Assembly (NCBI GenBank): GCA_903894755.1
Contig: CAITRH010000611.1
Coordinates: 1 to 34,870, forward strand
Source: an uncultured delta proteobacterium
GTDB lineage: Bacteria > Myxococcota_A > Polyangia > Polyangiales > Polyangiaceae
DNA: 34,870 nucleotides
Direction: 5' to 3'
A program made the position numbers and the translations under genes. This document shows positions 1 through 34,870 of the stretch, piece after piece. Position 1 is the first letter of the stretch; every line of letters begins with the position of its first letter. Below the pieces are notes generated by a model. That model was not told the DNA's origin. It searched no databases and was given only the letters and a program-made list of their open reading frames with translations.

Positions 1-107
1 GGGCAAGGAGGATGTCGAGGGAGAGGGGGTTGGGGGTGAGGTCTGCGCGAAATTGGGGCGCGGAAGCAGTGGATCGGACCTGCGGTTCTCAAGATGGGTT
101 TGGTTTA
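1..107. repeat. Half of a long palindromic repeat at the left edge
   Basis: These 107 bases match the reverse complement of 34754-34860 with five mismatches, at positions 45, 51, 68, 71 and 88. The outer end reads TGGTTTA at 101-107. The inner end starts GGGCAAGG at base 1. The right-hand copy continues through TTGCCC-ATGC-GGGCAA, itself a palindrome, so base 1 appears to lie just past the centre of a palindrome of roughly 220 bp whose other arm is missing. The kup remnant abuts the outer end. The element shares its TGGTTTA terminus with the 29199-29347 palindrome. A 38-codon frame runs through it, but I see no sign that it encodes a protein. Confidence 0.85.
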
Positions 108-110
108 GGC

Positions 111-561
111 TGTGAGAATTGCGGAAAAGCGCAACGAGCACGATGCACAAGAGCAGGTATCCCCAGTTGATCCCGGGGACATAAATCTGTCCCTCCATCT
201 GCGGATTGGTGTGCACCACCTCAAGCCGCGGGAACAGACCCAGTTGGATCGCTTGACTGACCAGAGAAAACGCTCCCGAGATGAGTGCTTGGCTCACAAT
301 CACCGTCTCAAGCCAGCTGATCGCGACAAGCGGGTAGACAAAGGCCGCACTGGACGGAACCAGTGCATAAAACACGTTCCCGTCGACAATCGGCGCTGGG
401 TCCAACATGCCCACCCTCGCGGTCCCAAGGCGCTGGATCGAGAAGAGCGCAACAAGGGTCGCTATGGATAGCCAAGGGATGTACGGCGACCAACGGTGTG
501 TTACCACCTCCAGCCCCTCCCAAGCCGACATGATGGAAAGGGACGGCGTAATGACCCCGTC
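111..561 (-). pseudogene. kup: kup potassium uptake protein remnant, internally deleted
   Basis: Read on the minus strand from 561, one frame gives clear Kup/HAK/KUP K+ transporter sequence. It starts with the family motif DGVITPSLSIMSAWEGLEVV, goes on to SIQRLGTARVG, then jumps to NVFYALVPSSAAFVYPLVA, ISGAFSLVSQAIQLG and GQIYVPGINW. In intact Kup proteins about 100 residues separate the GTARVG-like segment from the NPFF/FYALVP-like segment; here they are almost joined. The N-terminal part before DGVITP is absent or scrambled. The C-terminal half is cut off within one codon of the palindromic repeat at 1-107. About 150 codons remain of a family usually over 600 residues. I consider it a dead fragment. 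The opposite-strand and other-frame ORFs over this region are not supported. Confidence 0.8.
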
Positions 562-1093
562 CCACGAGCTTGAACTTGCCTCTGCGCTGCTCCGCGACCT
601 CGCCTATCGTCACGTATGGCTCTATGACTGTGGAGTTCAGGCTGTCGCCGTGGGTACTTGGTTTCAAAGTGATTGATGAGAAGGTGCACACCTCGGTTGC
701 GAGAAGCTTGAGCCCCGTCCCTACGGAGGCGCGCTGGCCAAGGCGTCGCCTGGACAGAGGTTCCCGGAAAGTCTTCGATATCATATAGGCCATAAATGCC
801 TTCCGGTGACCAGAGTGGCCGGACTGCGCGCATCCAAAATTCAAGTGCAACGCAATTCCTTTTGATGTTACCGGCCGCATGAATCCCGAGTGCCCGATCG
901 CCCGCTAAGCTTTTCGACCTCTCGGGACAAAAGCCACGCCAGAAGCCGCGACGGGAGCGCATCGCACGGCGAGGCCTTCCGCAGGAGAAGCCGCGGCGGC
1001 ACCCGCCGGGACAACTTCTGTCGTCGAAGTCGCTGCGTAAGGCCGCGACACGAGATGGGCCGTTCAGGAAACCGCTGCATCAGGGGATGACAC
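562..1093. other. No recognisable gene
   Basis: This stretch lies upstream of the kup remnant and beside the 42-bp array. Several frames are open because of high GC, but none gives a protein I recognise and none has a convincing start with a ribosome-binding site. The last 150 bases resemble the array in composition and may be decayed units. It may also hold scrambled sequence once belonging to the 5' part of kup, but I could not identify any. Confidence 0.5.
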
Positions 1094-30083: not shown

Positions 30084-33000
30084 TCAGCAGGGCCACCCCG
30101 GAAAATGCATGGCAACCATCCGGGCGGGATTGGCAATGGTCTGACCGCGCATCCACGCCTCTGCCTCCTCTAGGAGCGCGGTCCCCTCTTGCCCGCCGTC
30201 TTGTCCGCAAAGCGTCTGGCCTAGGCGCCACTGCACCACCGCCATGAGCAGTCTTGAGTCGTGTTTTTCAAACAGAACAATCGCCTCGCGCAACGCCTCG
30301 ATCGCCCCCTGCCGGTCTCCCAGAAGGTGGGCGCGACCAGCCTCGATCATGAGCGCGAGGGGTTTTCCGATGGGAACGCTCCCCGCAAGACTCGACACGA
30401 GCTTCTTGGCCCGTCGAAGCGCGTTCTTTCGCGCAGTCCCCTCGCGCCGTTGCGCCAAAGCAAGCGCAATGCGCCCCTCGAGGAAATCAATCTCGAGCCG
30501 CACCATCGTGATTGTGAGCAATAGCGACCAAAACAGCGGACCACGATGCCGTTCGAGATCCTCGTGGGCTCGCTCCGGATCTCCGTCGTACAGCGCGAGC
30601 TCGCAGCGTGAGTGCAGCGCATAGAACTCCTGCGGAGAGAACCGCCCCGTGGAAGGCCAAATGGCCATCGCCCCGTCTACATCTCGCTTCGCAGCCGCGG
30701 AGTCGTCGGACGCCAGGTGCACCATGATGAAGCGCGATCGAAAGCTCACTTCGGTGCAACGATCGGCGCGTCGCTGGGCCTCTCGGACAATCTGTGGCAC
30801 CAGTCGTCCAAGCTCCGCCACCTCGCCAAGGTAAAGCCGAGACCAACCGGCCATCATGCGGCACGTGTCAACCTCGAACCCGGCACCGCCCCGCGCGGCA
30901 CGAAACTCCGCCTCGCCGACGTTCATTGAGGTGACCGTCTGACGCCATTGGTTCGTCACGTAGTACGCGATGCTCCCCTGCGCCAAGTGGCCCATGATGG
31001 TGGCCAGGGCGTCGCCGGTGCGCTCGGCCAGGGGACGAAATAGGTCGCAGGCACGTCGTGCCCGCACCGCGTCGTTGGCCCGCGCGAGGTAGCTCCCCTC
31101 CATGGCGAGGACTCGAGCCACACGACGCGGTTCGCCGAGGCGAAGGGCTGCGAGAAGGCTCCGAGTCTGGAATTCAGCCCCCACAAGTGTATCGATGGTC
31201 ACAATGCCGAAGGCGACGCTCCACAGCGTGTCGAAGCGCACCAGATCGGCGACCGCAATGGCTTCCACGGGACGCTCGCGAAAGCCAAAGCCTCGAAGAA
31301 ACAGAAGGGCCCGAAAGAAGAGCACGCGAAAAACCGTGACAAAGGTCGAACGCGATAGCGACAGCCCCTGCTCCGCAAGGACTTCTTGCATCGCAGTCCA
31401 CCCCTCCGTCATGTAACCGCCGTGGAGGTACTCTTCAGCGGCGCGTCGCCGAAGCTCAAAGGCGAGCACCGGATCGGCCCCCACAGCGGCGTCGCCAAAG
31501 GCCCGGGCCGCGTCAGCGGGACGTCCCGCGTAGGAAAGCGCTTCGGCGCGCAACGTGCCCAAGGCCTGTCGCTCGTCGCCTGTGAAGCTCCCCACACGAA
31601 GCGCAAACTCGTACAGACGCGCCGCTCGATCGAAGTCGAAGGCCTTCGCGGCTTGCTCGGCGGCCTGACGCGCGTGGACCCCCGCACGCGCCGGATCCCC
31701 CGCACCAAGCAAGTGACGCGCAAGCCTCTCGTCGTTCGCTTCCCCCCACCGCTGCAGCGCCGACACCAGCGCACGATGAACGCGGCGCCGTCGATCGTCC
31801 GAAAGACGTACCGTGATCGCACTTCGAAGACGCTCCTGACCCAGCTCCAGCCGGTCGGTCGCCCCCTCTCCGGTGGCTTGCACGATGCGCTCGGCTCGCA
31901 ACGTGTCCACCTGCTCGTGAACCAGCACCTGCTCGAGAGTCGTCGCCGTCGTCGCCGCCCGTCGGCTGATCGGCTCGCCCGCTACCACTAACACTTCAAG
32001 GAGCCGCTGGGCCCGCTCCGGAAGACGCGCGAAACGCTCTCCAAGCACGTCGTCGAGATGAAGTCCTCGAACGTCGCTCACCCCCCCCACGTTCACGTAC
32101 TCGGCCAACTCCGCCACAAAGAAAGGATTGCCCCCCGCCTCCACCGCGATCTGCGTCGCGACTTCAGGGGACGGCGCTGAAAGAAGTCTCGAGGCCAACT
32201 GGGTCGCGTCCTCTCGACCAAGCGGACCAAGCTCGATGTGCGCCGACCGGACCGCCATCTGGGCGATGAGACCACGGAGCCGCTCAGTCCCCTCGGGACG
32301 GCACGAAAGAACAAGGAGCAGCGCAGGGGGATCGGGCGGTCGCATCAAGTCGCTAAGGAGAAGAAGCGTGTTGTCGTCCACCCACTGCAGGTCGTCGAGG
32401 ACCAGCACCAGCGGCTGGCGGGCCGCGAAGTGGCGGAAGACGTCCCGAAGCGCCGCAAAGGCGCGCGTGCGAAGGAGCTGCGGGTCCTCGACGACTTCCA
32501 TGGCTGGCGCTTTGGCCACCCAAGGCACGCGCGCGAGCACGGGGAAAAGACGTGGCAAAAGAGCCGCTTCGTCGGGCAGCAGGTTCTCGCCCTCGTCGCC
32601 AAGGTCCATCCATCGCGTCGACAGGTGGTCGATGAGGCTATCCATCGCCTTGAACGGAACCGCCTCGCGTGCGTAGCAACGTCCCTCGAGAACGACGGCA
32701 TGCCCAGAGCGCTCGCGCACCTTTGCGAGGAACGCTCGCACAAGGGCCGTCTTGCCAAGGCCCGACTCGCCCGTAAGGGTCGCCGCCGCCGGACCGCCCG
32801 CGAGCACATGGGACAAGAGCGTGTCGAGTATCGCCATCTCCCGTCCCCGTCCCGCCATCTCGGTGCCCACGGCGAAGGAGCGCGAAAGACGCGACGACGA
32901 CGCAGAGACGCCGACCCGACGCATGATTTCGTCGTCCGACGGCCGGTCTTGGGGCTCCATGGCGAGCAGTGCGGCGCAAAGGTCGACGAGGTCCTGCGGG

Positions 33001-33791
33001 GCGTCGGGGGCGAGACTGGACACGCGAGGCGAGTCCACGGTCAGCTTCTCGGTGAGCACCTGCGTGATCGAACCGGAAAAAGGGACCTGTCCGGTCAACG
33101 CTTGAAAGAGCATCACGCCGAGCGCGTAGGCGTCCGAGGCCGCCGTGACGACGGTGTCTTCGAGCCCCTGCTCGGGGGCCATGTACTCGACTGTGCCCAT
33201 CACCTCGGCATGCGACACCTCGGTGGAGTCCAGGTCGGCCACCAGGCCAAAGTCGAGCAGAATGACCCGTCCCTCGCGAGTGACCAGAACGTTGTCGGGC
33301 TTGACGTCGCGATGAACCCGTCCTGCCGCATGGAGCACGCTCAACCCCACGGCAAGCTGACGCAGAGCGCTACGAAGCCGCTCTGCATCGAGCTGGGGCG
33401 ACGCGCGGAGAGGACGTGACGGCTGCATGCGTACGCCGGGAATCACGCTCGAGACGAACTTGAGCGTCCCGGTCATCGACACGGTCTCTGCGGTCGTGTG
33501 CCAGACGTACGAAAGGAAATCGATCCCCTCGACGAGCTCCATGGTCAGGAAGCACGCGTCGCCTTCGACCACGAGGTCACCGAGGGCGAGCAGGTTTTTG
33601 TGTCGGAGCTCCGCCATCGCTCGAAACTCGTGTTTCAGGCGGTACATGGTTTCGGGGTCGGGCCTCTTGAGGGTCTTCAGAGCAACGCGCTCACCTCGTT
33701 CCAGGTCATCGACCTCGTAGACGACGCCCATGCCTCCCTCGCCGAGGCGACGAAGGACCTTGAAGCGCGTCGACTGCTCAAGCTCAATCAC
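30084..33791 (-). CDS. PknK-like serine/threonine kinase with AAA ATPase and TPR-like domain (copy 2)
   Basis: 1235 residues from GTG 33791, chosen because GGGGTGG lies seven bases upstream and because the sequence before it belongs to an older kinase-gene tail; a GTG at 33821 would add ten residues. The kinase domain has RFKVLRRLGEGGMGVVYE, VALK, VHRDVKPDNVL, DFGLV and GTVEYMAPEQG. The ATPase has Walker A GESGLGKTAL and Walker B LVLVLDDLQWVDD. A long helical TPR-like region follows and ends ...NPARMVAMHFPGWPC. It parallels copy 1 over its whole length but diverges strongly in the C-terminal third. With the Crp/Fnr gene 16 bases downstream it forms a likely two-gene operon, which suggests that the kinase controls that regulator (inference). 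Confidence 0.9.
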   Translation of the reverse strand: MIELEQSTRFKVLRRLGEGGMGVVYEVDDLERGERVALKTLKRPDPETMYRLKHEFRAMAELRHKNLLALGDLVVEGDACFLTMELVEGIDFLSYVWHTTAETVSMTGTLKFVSSVIPGVRMQPSRPLRASPQLDAERLRSALRQLAVGLSVLHAAGRVHRDVKPDNVLVTREGRVILLDFGLVADLDSTEVSHAEVMGTVEYMAPEQGLEDTVVTAASDAYALGVMLFQALTGQVPFSGSITQVLTEKLTVDSPRVSSLAPDAPQDLVDLCAALLAMEPQDRPSDDEIMRRVGVSASSSRLSRSFAVGTEMAGRGREMAILDTLLSHVLAGGPAAATLTGESGLGKTALVRAFLAKVRERSGHAVVLEGRCYAREAVPFKAMDSLIDHLSTRWMDLGDEGENLLPDEAALLPRLFPVLARVPWVAKAPAMEVVEDPQLLRTRAFAALRDVFRHFAARQPLVLVLDDLQWVDDNTLLLLSDLMRPPDPPALLLVLSCRPEGTERLRGLIAQMAVRSAHIELGPLGREDATQLASRLLSAPSPEVATQIAVEAGGNPFFVAELAEYVNVGGVSDVRGLHLDDVLGERFARLPERAQRLLEVLVVAGEPISRRAATTATTLEQVLVHEQVDTLRAERIVQATGEGATDRLELGQERLRSAITVRLSDDRRRRVHRALVSALQRWGEANDERLARHLLGAGDPARAGVHARQAAEQAAKAFDFDRAARLYEFALRVGSFTGDERQALGTLRAEALSYAGRPADAARAFGDAAVGADPVLAFELRRRAAEEYLHGGYMTEGWTAMQEVLAEQGLSLSRSTFVTVFRVLFFRALLFLRGFGFRERPVEAIAVADLVRFDTLWSVAFGIVTIDTLVGAEFQTRSLLAALRLGEPRRVARVLAMEGSYLARANDAVRARRACDLFRPLAERTGDALATIMGHLAQGSIAYYVTNQWRQTVTSMNVGEAEFRAARGGAGFEVDTCRMMAGWSRLYLGEVAELGRLVPQIVREAQRRADRCTEVSFRSRFIMVHLASDDSAAAKRDVDGAMAIWPSTGRFSPQEFYALHSRCELALYDGDPERAHEDLERHRGPLFWSLLLTITMVRLEIDFLEGRIALALAQRREGTARKNALRRAKKLVSSLAGSVPIGKPLALMIEAGRAHLLGDRQGAIEALREAIVLFEKHDSRLLMAVVQWRLGQTLCGQDGGQEGTALLEEAEAWMRGQTIANPARMVAMHFPGWPC

Positions 33792-33797
33792 GTGTGG

Positions 33798-33980
33798 GCC
33801 ACCCCGGAAGATGCACGGCACCCACTCGGGCCGGATTGGTCATGTTCTGGGTTCGCATCCACGCCTCCGCCTCCTCTATAAGCAAGCTCCGGTTGTCGCC
33901 ACCAAGGGGCTGGTCGAGACGTTACCGCACTACCGCCATGAGAAGCATCGAGTCGAATTTCTTGAGGAGGACAAGCCTGC
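33798..33980 (-). pseudogene. Tail remnant of a third kinase paralogue
   Basis: Read on the minus strand, 33980 to 33798 aligns to the 3' end of the kinase gene at 30091-30285. It gives KKFDSMLLMAVVR, an in-frame stop, then LIEEAEAWMRTQNMTNPARV and HLPGWP, against EKHDSRLLMAVVQ, LLEEAEAWMRGQTIANPARM and HFPGWP in the intact gene. The two DNA stretches share GGCCACCCCGGAA and long runs of identity, with a short deletion of about 12 bases in the middle. Only the last 60 codons remain. It sits immediately upstream of the intact kinase gene and under the start of the gene on the other strand, so it marks an old tandem array of kinase genes that lost one member. Confidence 0.82.
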
Positions 33981-34750
33981 TGTCGCCTTCCGACCCACCG
34001 GCCTATCGCACGGCAAACGAAGGGGGGACGTCGCCTCTCCTTCTTCTTTGCGACCACGCGGCCAATGCGGTCCCCGAGGCGCTGGGCTCGCTTGGCCTTT
34101 GCGACGCCGACCTAGGTCGTCACATTGCCTGGGACCTTGGCGCCGAAGCGTTGACCCGACAGCTAGCGGAGCGTCTAGGGGCGACGGCGGTTCTGAGCTC
34201 GTTCTCGCGGCTGGTCATCGACTGCAATCGCGCGCTAGGCGATCGGACCTGCATGGCCGAGCAGAGTGACGGGACGCTGGTACCAGGAAACAAGGGGCTT
34301 GACGCGACCCAACGCAGCGAGCGGGCGGAGGCGCTGTATTGGCCGTATCACCGCTACGTGGCGACGGTGCTCGACGCGTTTGCGGCGCGTGGGGTGACGC
34401 CTGCGGTGATCTCGGTGCACAGCTTTACGCCACATATGAACGGCGTGGCACGTCCATGGCAGATTGGAGTCCTTTGGGATCGGGACGCACGCATTTCCCG
34501 ACCGCTTCTCGAGACGCTTTCACGCGACCAAAGCATTACGGTGGGAGACAACGAGCCCTACTCGCTTCGCGGTCCTGTCGATTTCACGCTGCCGCACCAC
34601 GCCGTTGCGCGCGGTTTGCCGCATGTTTTGATCGAGAGTCGGCAGGACGAGCTCGACGAGCCCGAGGGGGTAGCGCGTGTTGCGGGACTCCTTCACGGTG
34701 CGCTCGCGCCGATTCTGTCCGATCCCTCGCTGTTCCGAGCCATCTTGTGA
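33938..34750 (+). CDS. N-formylglutamate amidohydrolase family protein
   Basis: About 270 residues from ATG 33938. The family hydrolyses N-formylglutamate (histidine degradation) or related N-acyl amino acids. Matching segments are LLLLCDHAANAVPEALGSLGL, GRHIAWDLGAEALTRQLAERL, LVIDCNRAL, VISVHSFTPHMNGVARPW and HVLIESRQDEL, which include the Asp, His, Glu and Arg of the conserved core. The start is uncertain: ATG 33938 lies within the kinase-tail remnant on the opposite strand, and family homology begins around SDPPAYRTANEGGTSP, so a later TTG at 33962 or a codon after GAGGAGG (33963-33969) could be used. The stop is three bases before the right-hand palindrome. No other histidine-catabolism gene is nearby. 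Confidence 0.85.
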   Translation: MRSIESNFLRRTSLLSPSDPPAYRTANEGGTSPLLLLCDHAANAVPEALGSLGLCDADLGRHIAWDLGAEALTRQLAERLGATAVLSSFSRLVIDCNRALGDRTCMAEQSDGTLVPGNKGLDATQRSERAEALYWPYHRYVATVLDAFAARGVTPAVISVHSFTPHMNGVARPWQIGVLWDRDARISRPLLETLSRDQSITVGDNEPYSLRGPVDFTLPHHAVARGLPHVLIESRQDELDEPEGVARVAGLLHGALAPILSDPSLFRAIL

Positions 34751-34753
34751 CCT

Positions 34754-34870
34754 TAAACCAAACCCATCTTGAAAACCGCAGGTCCGATCTACCGCTTCCG
34801 CGCCCCAATGTCGCGTAGACCTCACCCCCAACCCCCTCTCCCTCGACATCCTCCTTGCCCATGCGGGCAA
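34754..34870. repeat. Half of a long palindromic repeat at the right edge
   Basis: 34754-34860 is the reverse complement of 1-107 with five mismatches. It starts TAAACCAAACC three bases after the stop codon of the amidohydrolase gene. It ends in TTGCCC-ATGC-GGGCAA (34855-34870), an inverted repeat that looks like the centre of a palindrome of about 220 bp, with the second arm just beginning when the window stops. Confidence 0.87.

Follow-up and report, generated by a model that had tools for sequence, protein, structure and literature searches.

A probable IS630/Tc1-mariner-type MITE with a near-palindromic, modular interior bounds a contig of an uncultured delta proteobacterium

Results

Partial copies of one repeat lie at both ends of the window

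The window, by which we mean the whole stretch of 34,870 nucleotides analysed here, is an entire contig (G000:C611:1-34870) from an assembly of 778 contigs and 6,777,678 bp. Both ends are occupied by partial copies of one repeat. On the left, the repeat meets a fragment of kup. On the right, it follows an N-formylglutamate amidohydrolase gene. Note that we refer to the outer part of the repeat as a shell and to its interior as a core; the window copies have shell 1 and core A. The relevant features are as follows.

1-107, minus strand: left partial copy (shell 1, core A), reading off the contig, with its interior at base 1 and its outer TA at 106-107; the end GGTTTGGTTTA is at 97-107; 95% inverted repeat of 34754-34860
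16-43, minus strand: core A motif of the left copy (pattern match, 0 mismatches)
81-107, minus strand: terminal inverted repeat of the left copy (shell 1), TGCGGTTCTCAAGATGGGTTTGGTTTA when read directly; belongs to a family of 418 ends
94-573, minus strand: fragment of kup (K+ transporter), interrupted by the left copy; PF02705, E=4.5e-44, best stretch at profile positions 264-355 of 454; the last 14 bases of the frame are inside the element
33794-34750, plus strand: N-formylglutamate amidohydrolase gene; PF05013, E=1.1e-44; TGA at 34748-34750, 3 bp before the right copy
34754-34870, plus strand: right partial copy (shell 1, core A), stopping at the contig end; belongs to a 94-copy family with 40 near-full-arm matches of 94-100%
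34754-34780, plus strand: terminal inverted repeat of the right copy (shell 1) with its outer TA, an exact consensus (0 mismatches to TAAACCAAACCCATCTTGAAAACCGCA)
34817-34870, plus strand: first part of core A in the right copy, from AGACCTCACCCCC through the local hairpin TTGCCC-ATGC-GGGCAA (34855-34870); core pattern at 34818-34845

A preliminary description of this DNA had noted that bases 1-107 and 34754-34860 are inverted repeats. We find the same (107 nt, 95% complementary). The terminal sequences that it gave, TTGCCC-ATGC-GGGCAA on the right and GGGCAAGG at the left start, are also as described. Each end is half of a shell-1 element, a probable miniature inverted-repeat element (MITE), and the two most likely derive from separate insertions.

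Other repeats are found elsewhere in the window. Positions 1081-1332 hold an array of 42-bp direct repeats (CCCGCGGCGACTTCCGCGGCAGAT). A 95-nt direct repeat (80%), at 30090-30184 and 33796-33890, is near the two ends of a 1245-codon minus-strand ORF (30084-33821). The segment 13008-16901 encodes a protein of 1297 residues in which cysteine-rich DUF4215 repeats occur 12 times; a PA14 match in it is below threshold. DUF4215 repeats, together with relatives that reach 16 Mb, would fit a member of Myxococcota.

Complete copies are near-palindromes of almost 300 bp

Each window end had been taken for one arm of a palindrome of about 220 bp, centred on ATGC. This does not hold. Contigs that read further, beyond TTGCCCATGCGGGCAA, continue with GGACGATCGTCTTCGAGAGAGGGGGCTCGGAAC rather than with a mirrored 107-bp arm. 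An approximate complement of the same stretch then follows, and one such contig (L030) reaches a second ATGC-type hairpin. TTGCCC-ATGC-GGGCAA is a small local sub-hairpin, found once in each half of the element, and the true centre lies about 50 bp further in. From the outside inwards, the layout is TA, the terminal inverted repeat AACCAAACCCATCTTGAAAACCGCA, a variable spacer, AGACCTCACCCCCAACCCCCTCTCCCTCGACATCC, the local ATGC hairpin, GGACGATCGTCTTCGAGAGAGGGGG and an unpaired centre, followed by an imperfect mirror image. Complete core-A copies (at C84, C544, C616 and C528) are near-palindromes of 273-293 bp, and each folds as a single hairpin across nearly the whole element. If its arm is mirrored around the centre seen in L030, the variant in the window would measure about 314 bp. 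Among the matches listed there are 18 complete shell-1 copies; 16 measure 270-349 bp, and the other two are short forms of 155 bp. Shell 1 thus has the hallmarks of a MITE: it is non-coding and multicopy, has ~27-bp terminal inverted repeats, and its ends are paired in the complete copies.

The CCTCACCCCC hairpins of core A might instead be REPs, arranged as BIMEs or REPINs and moved by a RAYT (Y1_Tnp) transposase. Indeed, this inner motif is more widespread than the shell. Stretches of 23-26 bp recur in relatives without shell 1, sometimes as an inverted pair of GC-rich hairpins in a REPIN-like layout, and RAYT genes are present in seven of eight genomes checked. A RAYT gene normally has its own REPs on either side. 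However, none of 15 RAYT loci, in 8 genomes, has core A within about 1.5 kb, and copies in the window genome are TA-bounded inverted repeats. We consider it very unlikely that the element is of this kind, though a REP/RAYT origin could still apply to core A itself.

Shell 1 is bordered by TA, usually preceded by C

We next consider the borders of the MITE. In a sample of ends that is not random, TA starts 119 of 130 distinct shell-1 ends with flanking sequence. A C precedes the TA in 85 of these 119, and 29% of ends are without C at position -1. Where two elements abut, they have a single TA in common (GGTT-TA-AACC and GCTAC-TA-AACC). This is consistent with TA duplication but is no proof of it. 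We also looked for target duplication within the genome, starting from a 21-bp tandem array that is split (L015), but its other half was not found. A scan of genome contigs with the amidohydrolase turned up no near relative, the homologues being at most 54% identical. Short tandem arrays, for instance of a 21-bp acgtcagctaaattccatcta unit or a GTAGGTCCGACCAAGGCGCCGG-type unit, are directly beside some copies (L015 in C228, L215 in C146 and L217 in C147).

No complete transposase gene with shell-1 ends (AACCAAACCCATCTTGA) was found, only a short fragment. This truncated DDE_3 (IS630-type) sequence, in C742 (L143, 1461-1617), is directly inside a shell-1 end and is a possible remnant of an autonomous parent. 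Since it is the sole DDE_3 trace, and occurs at one end, we infer the shell-1 parent rather than observe it. A second shell, GTAGCTCGCGGCGGAAGTCCTTGGACACT, has 120 ends, mostly in a C-TA-G context. Shell-2 ends directly follow DDE_3 (IS630-type) genes at C640, C549 and C155. Because neither an empty site nor an active shell-1 transposase was found, transposition itself is also something that we infer. Even so, given the TA flanks, the CTAG-like target and the transposase fragment beside one end, it is highly likely that shell 1 is a non-autonomous MITE of the IS630/Tc1-mariner type that spread in a lineage-specific burst; it is 270-320 bp long, and TA-flanked inverted repeats of some 27 bp enclose its near-palindromic, modular interior.

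Copies are enriched at the 3' ends of genes

Both arms had been described as starting directly at the end of a coding sequence. This is correct for the right copy, 3 bp past the amidohydrolase stop codon. At the left end, by contrast, the copy disrupts kup, whose reading frame continues into it. Hence, the two examples differ in kind. The kup fragment (94-900, minus strand) also contains stop codons and a frame break further upstream, and its decay may predate or postdate the insertion.

It had further been suggested that the element targets gene 3' ends, and that copies be mapped relative to stop codons. In our mapping, which relied on ORFs called by a crude codon score and a non-random sample of ends, 57 shell-1 ends face the 3' end of a gene and 32 face a 5' end; within 20 bp the numbers are 28 and 7. 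Copies are enriched at 3' ends in this sample, but recognition of 3' ends is not the likely cause. More likely, the pattern arises from a CTAG target, a preference compatible with TAG stop codons, together with selection against gene disruption. Of 41 ends with an upstream frame of at least 100 codons, 26 have that frame in phase with the TAA that the element supplies (p=8e-5). Such a bias would be expected of insertion at the TA of a C-TAG stop. The TAG would become the element's TAA and, hence, the protein would stay intact.

The same shell carries two unrelated interiors

The interiors of the 18 complete shell-1 copies, among the matches listed, are of two types. Five have core A, the CCTCACCCCC palindrome present in the window. 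The other 13 have core B, which is unrelated to core A and consists of two inverted units of Acido-Lenti-1 RNA (Rfam RF01687), as illustrated by two 47-bit hits in L092. At the Rfam gathering threshold, the window and two core-A loci yielded no match; only the core-B sister element and a tRNA were detected. The window copy is not, then, a member of the Acido-Lenti-1 family.

Cores are not confined to shell 1. Core B also occurs in shell 2, in a third shell (AACGGCCCGCTAAGTCACGGGGCCTCG, 21 ends) and without any recognised shell. Core A is found in shell 2 at C492, with 98.6% identity over 73 bp to the window arm. Note that this copy is at a contig tip and, hence, is possibly an assembly chimera. 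That explanation is harder to apply to hybrids, with ends from two different shells, inside contigs C322, C593 and C14. Because the same shell holds either core, and the same cores occur in at least two other shells, we conclude that cores and shells have been reshuffled. In a distant genome from another family of the phylum (G215; L255, L269 and L280), Acido-Lenti-1 is present in at least 16 copies with identical scores, adjoining a CCCTCACCCCC-type hairpin. Both cores meet there in one repeat.

The Rfam assignment raises the possibility that these sequences are functional RNAs or transcription terminators, namely the Acido-Lenti-1 sRNA and a core-A counterpart, located at gene 3' ends and not mobile. 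Core B does exceed the Rfam gathering score (112 hits in the genome, most above it, the best at 50.9 bits against a cut-off of 37), and copies both favour gene 3' ends and fold strongly. However, a palindromic DNA repeat mimics structured RNA. Among the matches listed, the 18 pairs of adjacent Acido-Lenti-1 units are without exception inverted within one palindrome, the plus unit coming before the minus unit, so both strands read as Acido-Lenti-1 RNA. Furthermore, the ends are of the transposon type, some copies interrupt genes such as kup, and in 38 relatives no hit exceeds the family cut-off. We consider it very unlikely that these repeats are RNA genes or terminators instead of mobile DNA.

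The element coincides with many breaks in the assembly

The preliminary description supposed that the window is a whole contig bounded by a dispersed palindromic element. It is, and the same dispersed inverted-repeat element is present at both ends as partial copies. A search of the source assembly, which had also been proposed, found 94 matches to a 28-nt arm core with up to 3 mismatches (none for the reversed control), and contig ends are a frequent location. On the minus strand, 45 of 49 matches are within the first 300 bp of a contig (p ~3e-61, assuming uniform placement). Just two plus-strand copies are so placed (C34 and C67), and both are parts of nearly whole elements. These numbers identify the repeat as the boundary of the contig.

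The shell-1 terminal repeat with its TA is more abundant, with 418 ends in the window genome. It has no match in 183 other genomes of the order, or in viral contigs; similarly, complete elements with core A or core B have no match in plasmids. Among the shell-1 repeats listed, 49 of 59 on the minus strand, and none on the plus strand, are within the first 300 bp of a contig. If this share held for all 418, we estimate that shell 1 would be at roughly a fifth of the 1556 contig ends. Contigs break inside the element because copies are numerous, nearly identical and self-complementary. Hence, one lineage-specific MITE burst accounts for a considerable share of assembly breakpoints. It is very unlikely that the copies are metagenome assembly artefacts, arising from false extension of repeat tips or from the binning of foreign contigs: most copies are at the ends of 778 contigs, the likeliest place for chimeric extension, but complete copies and hybrids are well inside contigs (C34, C117, C275, C322 and C593), flanks differ between copies, and the genome is 99.84% complete and 0.74% contaminated.

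Discussion

We conclude that the window is bounded by copies from a real MITE burst, ordinary in kind, with interior palindromes common to several transposon shells. Copy number, the TA/CTAG signature and the presence of two cores in one shell are our strongest claims. We are least sure of which transposase served shell 1 and of how the cores moved. A possible sequence of events is as follows. An IS630-type transposase, acting in trans, would recognise the inverted repeats, and the element would insert at TA, preferably within CTAG. A lineage-specific burst could then leave about 200 or more copies. Since C-TAG ends many genes, and gene disruption is costly, surviving copies would cluster at stop codons. 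Reshuffling of cores and shells might occur most simply via recombination between copies with a common palindromic core.

A broader interpretation, which we offer tentatively, is that the genome hosts MITEs that are put together combinatorially. Three or more transposon-like shells, of which two are IS630-type, may share and exchange a few long palindromic interiors, one being the Rfam 'sRNA' Acido-Lenti-1. If so, Acido-Lenti-1 would be, at least here, a spreading DNA palindrome and not an RNA gene. The core may be retained by promoting recombination or hairpin formation. Should cores and shells exchange freely, the terminal repeats and interior of a MITE would evolve as separate units. The insertions at stop codons illustrate how such an element could multiply without much cost, the TAG that ends a gene being replaced by the TAA of the element. 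Our literature search covered nested IS630 MITEs, myxobacterial MITEs and MITE insertion at stop codons, with most subscription journals outside its coverage, and returned no earlier description of this arrangement.

Several known systems have features in common with the shell-1 MITE. RUP of Streptococcus pneumoniae, a MITE attributed to IS630-Spn1, is likewise short, high-copy and non-coding, with TA sites, and has IS630-type ends, as our element probably does; it is often in or beside IS elements (PMC2229807). However, RUP is a single family of 107 bp, whereas the element here is 270-320 bp, nearly fully palindromic and has an interior that is swapped between shells. IS630 of Shigella sonnei, described as preferring TA within CTAG (Tenzen and Ohtsubo 1991, as cited in PMC2170065), and ISY100, which inserts at TA with TA duplication (PMC2170065), resemble our element in their TA target and, for IS630, the CTAG preference; shell 2 is also directly beside DDE_3 genes. 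Those two are autonomous transposons, whereas the element in the window is non-coding, and we found no transposase of its own. The mosaic repeats BIME and REPIN (PMC2817692) similarly assemble palindromic modules in high-copy mosaics. In our case, transposon shells bordered by TA enclose the modules, and none of the 15 RAYT loci has core A nearby. Finally, Acido-Lenti-1 RNA (RF01687; Weinberg et al. 2010, PMC2864571) matches core B of the sister elements at up to 50.9 bits. It was published as a probable non-coding RNA, and units of Acido-Lenti-1 close to protease genes are still interpreted as possible regulators in a paper from 2026 (PMC13298647). Here, in contrast, an inverted pair of units forms the interior of a mobile-type element. 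It would appear, for the window genome at least, that mobile palindromes have an uncharacterised RNA family of Rfam as their interior.
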